Source: Chloroflexota bacterium
GTDB taxonomy: Bacteria > Chloroflexota > UBA11872
Length of the DNA: 64,000 bases
Reading direction: 5' to 3'
NCBI GenBank assembly: GCA_026707585.1
Contig: JAPOWQ010000040.1
Coordinates: 62,001 to 126,000 of the forward strand
The notes beneath the pieces are model-generated. The model searched no databases. It was not told the DNA's origin and worked only from the letters and a program-made list of their open reading frames with translations. Position numbers and translations under genes: made by a program. This document shows, piece after piece, positions 27,793 through 56,335 of the stretch; the first letter of the stretch is position 1; every line of letters begins with the position of its first letter.

Positions 27793-27925
27793 CGACGTCG
27801 GTCGAGCGGCCTCTCGCAAGTCCTGCCTCCAGCGATTCTCCGCTGAAAGCCAAGGCCTTCGAGTTGCCAGGTCCTGCGACCTGACGCCCGAGGAACCCTC
27901 TCTTGAGCGGAGAGCGGTCACCTCT

Positions 27926-28087
27926 CGTTCAGGCAGGTCTCCTGGCTTACGGGCTTAGGTCTGTCGCCGGTCCCTTCCCATCGATCCCTCGACAGTGGAC
28001 CCCGGCTCCGAAATCCCGCTTACAGTGGCGCTACCGCGGCGGATTTGCACCGCCTTCCCTATTCTCCCTAGGGCGGGCACCTGAACG
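27926..28087 (-). promoter_or_regulatory. Cobalamin riboswitch
   Basis: On the minus strand the closing stem pairs CGTTCAGG (5' end, 28087) with CCTGAACG (3' end, 27926). Between them are the conserved AGGGAATAGGGAA stretch, GGTGCAAATCCGCCGC, the GCCACTG loop (28023-28029) and the B12 box GCCAGGAGACCTGCC (27932-27946). This is a complete class-I-like cobalamin riboswitch. It would switch off btuC-btuF-btuD and the cob genes when adenosylcobalamin is abundant. Confidence 0.95.
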
Positions 28088-28118
28088 AACGATGCGTAAC
28101 TAAGTTCGGTTGGGCGGA

Positions 28119-53633: not shown

Positions 53634-54383
53634 ATGCGCTTTGGCGACCTCACCTACCTCGAAATCCGCCAGCAGGCAAAGACCGGCTGCCTGGCGATCC
53701 TTCCCACCGGCTGCACCGAGCAGCAGGGTCCGCACCTCCCCGTCGACTTCGACACTTGGCTCGCCGAGCGCCTCTGCCTGGCGGCGTCCCGGAGGGCTGC
53801 AGGCAAATTTCGCGTTCAATCGCTGGTGCTACCCGCGATCCCTTTCGGTCCAACGCCGGAACATCGGAACTACGGGGCGGGCTACGTCGACATCCCGGGC
53901 AAACTCCACAGCGGTCTGGTCTCCGCGACATTGGCTTCCCTCGCCGCGCAGGGCTTCGAGCGCATCGTCGTCTGGCGCGGCTGCGGCGGCCACGACTTGC
54001 GCGAAACGGTCAGGGAGTTCAACCAGGCAAGCCCTCACGAGGCCCAGGCCTTCCTGCCTGAGCACCCATTCCACGACATCTGGTGCCGTCTCGGTGACCC
54101 GGATGTGCCAGGCGGCCATGCCGACAGCTTCTCAACCTCGATATCGCTCCATCTGCGCCCTGCAACCGTCCGGGTGAACGAGATCAGGGATCCCGCCCAT
54201 CGGGCCGTTGACTGGCAGGATCCGGACTTGGACTTCGCGCGCTACTCGTCCACCGGGGTCATTGGCAACCCAACCCACGCCAGCGCCCAGCTTGGCGCCA
54301 AACTCTGGGAGGCCTCTGTGGCGAGTGTCGCCAAGACTCTGCGGGCAATATCGCTGACCTCCGCATCCACCGACGGTCCCTAG
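53634..54383 (+). CDS. Creatininase-family protein with altered metal ligands
   Basis: 249 residues with GGAGAG before the ATG. LPTGCTEQQGPHLPVDFDTW matches the first metal segment GSxEQHGPHLPxxTD: Glu29 and Asp40 are kept, but the His of EQHG is Gln31. The second segment, normally NGHGGN, reads RGCGGH (C116, H119). The late HAGxxETS reads HADSFSTS. Typical members are amidohydrolases using zinc or manganese. The changes suggest a different metal arrangement or a distinct subfamily. Confidence 0.8.
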   Translation: MRFGDLTYLEIRQQAKTGCLAILPTGCTEQQGPHLPVDFDTWLAERLCLAASRRAAGKFRVQSLVLPAIPFGPTPEHRNYGAGYVDIPGKLHSGLVSATLASLAAQGFERIVVWRGCGGHDLRETVREFNQASPHEAQAFLPEHPFHDIWCRLGDPDVPGGHADSFSTSISLHLRPATVRVNEIRDPAHRAVDWQDPDLDFARYSSTGVIGNPTHASAQLGAKLWEASVASVAKTLRAISLTSASTDGP

Positions 54384-54474: not shown

Positions 54475-54723
54475 TTACGCCAGTGCCGCGCTCACCAGCG
54501 GCAAAACCTCGCCGTCCTCCGCATGACGCCCCAGCGCCTTCTTCGAGAACACCAGGTCCCCGTCGACGACCACCTCGAAAACGCCGCCTCCCGAAGGCAT
54601 CAGCGTCATCTCGCCCACGTCGGTTCCATGCTCTCCCAGGATCTCTTCCGTCGCACGGACGGCTTTAGGGAGATAGTTTCATTGGCTGCAGTATTCGATC
54701 GAAACCCGGGCGCCGCGTCCCAT
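54475..54723 (-). CDS. SelW/Rdx-family selenoprotein with CxxU motif (UGA = selenocysteine)
   Basis: 82 residues from ATG 54723 (GAGGGAG upstream) to TAA 54475, with a single in-frame TGA at 54681-54679. The protein reads RVSIEYC-S-Q-U-NYLPKAVRAT, so the UGA is codon 15, exactly the second redox residue of the C-x-x-C/U motif of SelT/SelW/SelH-like (Rdx) proteins (Cys12, Sec15). The rest matches the thioredoxin-like Rdx fold: GEMTLMPSGGGVFEVVVDGD and LVFSKKALGRHAEDGEVLPL. A SECIS-like stem-loop follows the UGA. Such proteins are thought to be small redox proteins. Ordinary gene finding stops at the UGA and misses it. The Sec machinery is not in the window. Alternative: a Cys codon mutated to UGA. 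Confidence 0.82.
54641..54674 (-). promoter_or_regulatory. Bacterial SECIS-like stem-loop
   Basis: On the minus strand, starting four bases after the UGA: ATCTC (54674-54670) pairs with GAGAT (54645-54641), and CCGTC (54662-54658) with GACGG (54652-54648), closing the loop CGTGC. Seven and two unpaired bases separate the stems. The loop starts 22 bases after the UGA and has G at its second position, within the published bacterial SECIS pattern as I recall it. It should recruit SelB. Confidence 0.7.
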
Positions 54724-54907
54724 GGTGCGCTCCCTCGTGCGGGTGGTGCATTAGGCGTACGCTGCAATTGTCGCATGCGCGCTGCCTCGGCTCACCCTTG
54801 CCGCGAGCAAGGCCCGTGAAGCTGCGCGAGCTTGCAAGCGACCAGGGGCCTGCGCAGCCTCGGGATTGCACCGCCGGACTGCCCGCAATCGACAGGAGAT
54901 GGTCAAT

Positions 54908-56335
54908 ATGGGAACCGACGTAACTGACCTCGGCTCGCGCAAGCACCTCTTCATCGACCTTTCCCTGGCCGACCACACGTCCAACGTTGCCCTCGGCGTC
55001 AATCCCCCGCGCCTGGGCGGCATCGCCATCGGACGCGACCGCGCCTGGGAACACCACATTCACTTCCAGAACACCGTCCTCGATGACAACGGCCTGGCCC
55101 GCTGCTGGTACCTCGCGTCGATCATCCGCAGAGGACTGGAATCCGCGCGGTTTGGATACGCCGAGTCCGAGGACGGCCGCAACTGGCGCAAACCCAACCT
55201 CGGCCTGGTCGAGCTCAACGGCCGACGCGACATGAACCTCATCCCGCCCAAGCCCAAGCGCTCCAACGTCTTCATCGACCCCACAGCGCCTCCCGCGGAG
55301 CGCTACAAGACCTTCGGCCTCAGCCTCGAAGGCGATCCCGGAGGCGACGGCTACGGCGTCTTCGCGTCCCCCGACGGCTACGTTTTCCATGAGCTCGGCT
55401 GCAACGGCCTCCGGCTTGCCGGCGACACCCAGAACATGGCCTTCTGGGACGACCGCATCGGACGCTACGTCGCCTACCTCCGGGGCTTCTCCCATCATCC
55501 CGACGGCCGTCGCCGCCGCGCGGTGGCGCGCTGGGAGACCGACGACCTGACCAGCCGCGAGGGCTGGGACCTGTCGAACGAGGAAAGCGACCGCCACGTC
55601 ATCAACCAGTTGCCCATCGTCATCGCCTGCGACGACGACGATCCCCCCGACATGGACATCTACACCCCGTCCGTCGTCAAGTACCCGGGGGCCGACGACG
55701 TCTACCTCGCCACCATGTCCATGTACCACCACTTCACCCCCGAAGAGATGGACGACACAGACCCACCCCGCAACGACGGCCTCATGGACATCCAGCTCGC
55801 CGTCAGTCGCGACGGCATCGCATGGGACCGTCCCGACCGCCGGCCCTACGTCGGCATCGACGCCGAAGGCCCCGGCCAGCGCATGTGCTACGCCGTCCAG
55901 GGCATCTTGGTCCGCGGAGACACCGTCCTCCAGTACCACACCGCCTACGACCAGTCCCACGGCCACAAGCGCCAGAACAACCCCGGCGGCGTCATTCGCT
56001 GGACCGAACAGCGCCTGGATGGCTTCGTCAGCGCTGACTTCGCCTACACAGGCGGCGAACTCGTCACCCGGCCAATCACCTTCAACGGGTCCAAACTGAT
56101 CCTCAACGTCGACGCCTCGGCGTCCGGCGAAGGCCGAGTCGAAATCCAGGACGCCCACGGCCGCCCGATCCCTGGCCGCACCCTCGCCGATTGCGACCGC
56201 ATCCTCGGCAACTTCCTCCGCCACCCCGTCACCTGGGGCGGCGATTCAACCCTCGGCGTACCCCCCGGCACCCCCATCCGCCTCAGATTCGCCCTCCGCA
56301 GCGCCCGCCTCTTCGCGCTCCAGTTCACAAATTAG
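54908..56335 (+). CDS. Propeller-type glycosidase-like protein
   Basis: About 475 residues from ATG 54908, which has AGGAG nine bases upstream (ATG 54899 and 54866 are possible but not conserved). LGSRKHLFIDLSLADHTSNV, then DRAWEHHIHFQNTVLDDNGL and GLARCWY. PPDMDIYTPSVVKYPGADD and DGIAWDRPDRRPYVGID parallel the gene at 19398 closely, so the two are recent paralogues. C-terminal sandwich with HPVTWGGD and LRFALRSARLFALQF. It is divergent from the selenoprotein gene; both promoters lie within 54724-54907. Confidence 0.78.
   Translation: MGTDVTDLGSRKHLFIDLSLADHTSNVALGVNPPRLGGIAIGRDRAWEHHIHFQNTVLDDNGLARCWYLASIIRRGLESARFGYAESEDGRNWRKPNLGLVELNGRRDMNLIPPKPKRSNVFIDPTAPPAERYKTFGLSLEGDPGGDGYGVFASPDGYVFHELGCNGLRLAGDTQNMAFWDDRIGRYVAYLRGFSHHPDGRRRRAVARWETDDLTSREGWDLSNEESDRHVINQLPIVIACDDDDPPDMDIYTPSVVKYPGADDVYLATMSMYHHFTPEEMDDTDPPRNDGLMDIQLAVSRDGIAWDRPDRRPYVGIDAEGPGQRMCYAVQGILVRGDTVLQYHTAYDQSHGHKRQNNPGGVIRWTEQRLDGFVSADFAYTGGELVTRPITFNGSKLILNVDASASGEGRVEIQDAHGRPIPGRTLADCDRILGNFLRHPVTWGGDSTLGVPPGTPIRLRFALRSARLFALQFTN

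Follow-up and report, generated by a model that had tools for sequence, protein, structure and literature searches.

Does the TGA at codon 15 of a short minus-strand frame in a Chloroflexota genome end translation, or is it read as selenocysteine (Sec) in a small redox protein? The frame lies in what we call the window, the whole 64,000-nucleotide stretch of DNA that was analysed, where the following features bear on the question.

54475..54723, minus strand: predicted selW-like (Rdx family) selenoprotein coding sequence of 82 residues, UGA = Sec at residue 15 (from translation with TGA as U, profile matches and purifying selection)
54724..54744, minus strand: ribosome-binding region, with GAGGGAG 5′ of the ATG (from the sequence)
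54688..54690, minus strand: first redox Cys codon (residue 12) of C-S-Q-U (from the translation; Cys kept in homologues)
54679..54681, minus strand: in-frame UGA codon predicted to be read as Sec, second redox position of CxxU (from the TGA conserved among homologues)
54641..54674, minus strand: bacterial SECIS-type hairpin (from the fold, homologue counts, paired changes and low pS)
53634-54383, plus strand: creatininase gene adjoining selW (PF02633)

The frame runs from an ATG at 54723 to a TAA (54477-54475) and contains a single TGA, which is codon 15. Translated with TGA as U it reads MGRGARVSIEYCSQUNYLPKAVRATEEILGEHGTDVGEMTLMPSGGGVFEVVVDGDLVFSKKALGRHAEDGEVLPLVSAALA, with the redox motif C12-S-Q-U15 near the N-terminus and homologues carrying the same motif, while a Shine-Dalgarno-like GAGGGAG stands directly upstream of the ATG (...CGCACGAGGGAGCGCACCATG). 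Profile searches, run with C in place of U, matched the protein to Pfam Rdx (PF10262) at 70.6 bits against a cut-off of 22.6 (E 1.3e-19) over residues 6-77, on both sides of the UGA, to NCBIfam NF041051 at 90.9 bits (cut-off 88) over residues 7-77 of the read-through protein, and to TIGR02174 (NCBIfam SelT/W/H) at 51.6 bits (cut-off 34.2). Among solved Rdx structures matched by sequence, the best was 2fa8 (E 2e-14), and the selenoprotein W structure 2npb matched weakly (E 0.006). Judged by the curated cut-offs, the predicted protein is a member of the Rdx (SelT/SelW/SelH) family. An initial annotation had described an 82-codon minus-strand frame with one TGA at C-S-Q-UGA, a good ribosome site and homology flanking the UGA; its coordinates, codon count and motif are exact, the GAGGGAG is found just 5′ of the ATG, and the comparison with the Rdx family that it called for gave the match across the UGA.

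Critical to a Sec reading is whether the organism possesses the decoding apparatus. The window belongs to a Chloroflexota metagenome bin of 3.9 Mb in 75 contigs (95.6% complete, 3.3% contaminated), and this genome carries tRNA-Sec (selC; 71.2 bits, anticodon UCA, TCA in DNA), selA (508 bits vs cut-off 268), selB (332 bits vs cut-off 242) and selD (370 bits vs cut-off 125). All four genes sought on the advice of the initial annotation are present, and a genome lacking selB or selC, which it had named as grounds for abandoning the proposal, was not encountered. The selD frame (L048:1501-2427; G000:C49:11963-12889) itself contains one in-frame UGA, in KLTRYAHGAGUACKL, and with this UGA (GAGUACK) selenophosphate synthetase is therefore a predicted selenoprotein too. 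A second tRNA-Sec match (contig C23, 50 bits) was rejected, being tRNA-Ser by ARAGORN. The four sel genes lie on separate contigs of the bin, and one or another of them could in principle be foreign to it, though same-genus genomes carry tRNA-Sec too. Among the 52 UGA-bearing genomes, tRNA-Sec was matched in 46, including every one at least 90% complete, and the remaining six are bins of 81-89% completeness. Because tRNA-Sec matches are common in the phylum (83 of 101 genomes), with tRNA-Ser perhaps behind some of the weakest (48-52 bits), this association is consistent with Sec decoding and not sharply diagnostic of it.

Downstream of the UGA the transcript can fold into a two-tier hairpin. 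After four bases the lower stem begins, AUCUC/GAGAU (54674-54670/54645-54641), followed by a 5-bp upper stem, CCGUC/GACGG (54662-54658/54652-54648), and an apical loop, CGUGC (54657-54653), which starts at the 22nd base after the UGA (an offset of 21 nt) and has GU at its second and third positions. The published constraints for bacterial SECIS elements are a loop of 3-9 nt, an upper stem of 4-16 bp, a G in the first two loop positions, a loop 16-37 nt from the UGA and an MFE of -7.5 or lower (PMC13188914). Coded directly for hairpin scoring, these constraints accommodate the window hairpin, with its 5 bp, CGUGC loop, 21 nt and MFE of -9.1 kcal/mol. The folding energy of the single window sequence is not exceptional, as an equally good fold arises in 30% of synonymous-codon randomisations. 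A model-based search over loop positions was made across homologues for hairpins with 5 bp or more and G[G/U] in the first positions of a loop lying 16-37 nt downstream of the UGA. Such a hairpin occurs in 84 of the 85 distinct Sec-form sequences, whereas randomisations preserving the protein and the family codon usage produce one in 26.5% of cases (s.d. 5%); L128, L135, L140 and L146 were left out of these statistics. Paired changes accompany this count, with U-A 26, C-G 22 and U-G 11 at one upper-stem position and C-G, U-A and G-C at another, although the 85 sequences are related, so that neither the hairpin count nor the paired changes are independent events. Folding z-scores average -0.69 at the SECIS, compared with values of about 0 at three control positions further downstream. 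Five of the seven Cys-form homologues have no SECIS-type hairpin, a weak control in that their amino acids differ there too. On the other side, some close relatives have a weaker lower stem (GAAAU in L012, for instance). The comparative data, rather than single-sequence energy, argue strongly for a SECIS. The stem-loop had been anticipated four bases after the UGA with its loop at 22, and both the stems and the loop position are exact; folding of 54641-54681, likewise suggested at that stage, agrees with the bSECIS constraints and with the comparative support.

When the stem is tested in a fixed register, it is complete in only 44 of 74 sequences, since some lineages use another register. In Acidimicrobiia-like loci (L108-L110, L112 and similar) the hairpin is CCGCGC-CGUGA-GCGCGG, shifted four bases nearer the UGA. 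We suggest, tentatively and at somewhat less than even odds, that SelW-like genes of many phyla have one common in-gene SECIS (GCCGUC-AGUUU/CGUGC-GACGG, loop 21-22 nt after the UGA), Acidimicrobiia-like members using a second register (loop at 17 nt, CCGCGC-CGUGA-GCGCGG). The likeness of the SECIS sequence across phyla may come partly from the common protein sequence.

Any readthrough would restore the frame, including insertion of Trp or another standard amino acid through a code change or leaky readthrough, yet such a reading is very improbable. The genome holds tRNA-Sec(UCA) and a complete Sec pathway, a SECIS hairpin lies downstream of the UGA, and the residue that homologues align with the UGA is Cys, not Trp. 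Further against it, some same-genus copies of the selW-like gene (L060, L061) end with UGA as their stop codon.

The Sec reading also agrees with the distribution of the codon. We searched 101 genomes with the protein (its own and 100 relatives) and found a homologue in 60, the best match having TGA in 52 and no stop in eight. At genus level (all twelve other genomes searched), as in the family, order and class, each homologue found has a TGA; across the phylum most do. Of the eight without a stop, seven could be extracted; each has Cys (TGC/TGT) at the site, and together they form a distinct subfamily. A Cys codon in close relatives, which would have spoken against the initial annotation, did not appear. 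A scan of public genome contigs yielded 75 loci, of which 74 span the active site, and TGA is there in all 74. The scan was not limited to UGA forms, because of its six query patterns one carried Cys at this position and the other five were placed elsewhere. By record title the TGA loci come from Chloroflexota, Actinomycetota, Gemmatimonadota, Planctomycetota, Desulfobulbaceae, Alphaproteobacteria, Acidobacteria, Armatimonadetes and others. The records nearest to the window gene are Chloroflexota MAGs, presumably sponge-derived to go by their isolate names (e.g. RHO, COS).

Selection on the coding sequence points the same way. In comparisons with ten genomes of the same genus pN/pS is 0.00-0.04, with two more distant members of the genus it is 0.21 and 0.30, and the codons downstream of the UGA evolve under strong purifying selection. 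Within the genus synonymous divergence falls about threefold under the hairpin (pS 0.09 vs 0.30 in the remaining gene after the UGA), where 4 of 12 degenerate codons vary, versus 38 of 50 elsewhere (Fisher p 0.007). An ordinary Cys-form Rdx gene that acquired its TGA through a sequencing error or a pseudogenising mutation is scarcely credible: metagenome contigs do carry errors, and Cys-form Rdx proteins occur in the same phylum, but the same TGA in twelve other same-genus genomes and dozens of independent assemblies already refutes this reading, and the purifying selection downstream and the conserved SECIS hairpin stand against it as well. Equally hard to credit, and already refuted by homology, is a spurious frame, either antisense noise to a 98-aa plus-strand frame (54523-54819) or part of a 519-aa minus-strand frame (54665-56224), for although both overlap the selW stretch, neither accounts for the Rdx homology, the synonymous-rate pattern or the cross-phylum conservation, and the 519-aa frame is itself antisense to a 489-aa plus-strand frame (54866-56335).

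Around the selW-like gene lie the creatininase and an aldo/keto reductase, both encoded by the plus strand, the 489-aa frame, which had no Pfam match at E 0.001, and a xanthine-dehydrogenase-type protein. DNA alignments of several same-genus loci pass over creatininase but retain the selW segment, suggesting gain or loss of creatininase beside a stable selW; in the sister genus the alignment is confined to some 260-310 bp around selW. On both these grounds selW appears to stand alone, and the neighbouring genes at the locus suggest no partner for it. Elsewhere in the window a cobalamin riboswitch occupies 27915-28099 on the minus strand (RF00174, 105.6 bits).

We conclude, with a probability of about 0.96, that the locus is a stand-alone SelW-like Rdx selenoprotein gene whose UGA codon 15 is decoded as Sec via tRNA-Sec(UCA), SelA, SelD, SelB and the SECIS, and whose product is probably a small CxxU oxidoreductase. 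Decoding of UGA as Sec by this organism, as the initial annotation had supposed, is supported by the sel genes, the conserved UGA and the SECIS. We infer actual Sec incorporation, redox chemistry and a physiological role along the following lines. SelA would form Sec on tRNA-Sec, with selenophosphate supplied by SelD; SelB would bind the SECIS hairpin, whose apical GU loop begins 21 nt downstream of the UGA, and deliver Sec-tRNA, so that the ribosome would read codon 15 as Sec through tRNA-Sec(UCA). The predicted product would probably act as a small thioredoxin-fold thiol/selenol oxidoreductase via a C-x-x-U selenenylsulfide.

Bacterial Sec-containing SelW-like proteins have long been described and are abundant (PMC1088965, PMC2398784, PMC1794560, PMC13188914), and the novelty first claimed for this gene was overrated in that respect. 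The CxxU SelW-like family outnumbered every other selenoprotein family in the Sargasso Sea survey, with 48 sequences (PMC1088965), and again in GOS, with 427 Sec versus 56 Cys forms (PMC2398784), and the window gene is for this reason best regarded as a further member of an established family. The marine bacterial proteins (pfam05169 in the surveys, PF10262 now) likewise have an Rdx domain, CxxU and a SECIS directly after the UGA, differing in that the window gene's host is a Chloroflexota bin. A redox function has been inferred for the family from CxxU, and a reported interaction with glutathione is mentioned (PMC1088965). The window protein passes the equivalog cut-off of NF041051 (SelTWH_Campy, SelT/SelW/SelH family (seleno)protein), but only slightly (90.9 vs 88), and that name points to Campylobacterota whereas the gene is from Chloroflexota. 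Eukaryotic selenoprotein W has the Rdx domain and the CxxU position in common with it; the eukaryotic SECIS, in contrast, is located in the 3′ UTR (PMC2398784), whereas that of the window gene is inside the coding sequence beside the UGA. The Cys-form Rdx proteins of the same phylum (L127, L129-L134; CAxCGYEPQTLAL...HSMYRDGGFPE), which are Rdx-like and were found with the window query, have Cys for Sec, other flanking motifs and mostly no SECIS-type hairpin. Because most of the genomes in which they occur have tRNA-Sec as well, they look like a separate subfamily and not a simple Cys replacement. For Chloroflexi a 2006 survey listed only 3 selenoproteins (PMC1794560), and by title and abstract the literature held nothing specific on selenoproteins in sponge Chloroflexota.

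The general picture of bacterial selenoproteins is unchanged by a selW-like gene in Chloroflexota. The locus is a well-supported example of a gene that would escape annotation based on stop codons, and a usable SECIS consensus for the SelW-like family can be drawn from the 85 distinct Sec-form sequences. It also places a complete Sec-decoding trait, together with a SelW-like selenoprotein, in a Chloroflexota genus that is known, among the records examined, from metagenome bins only.
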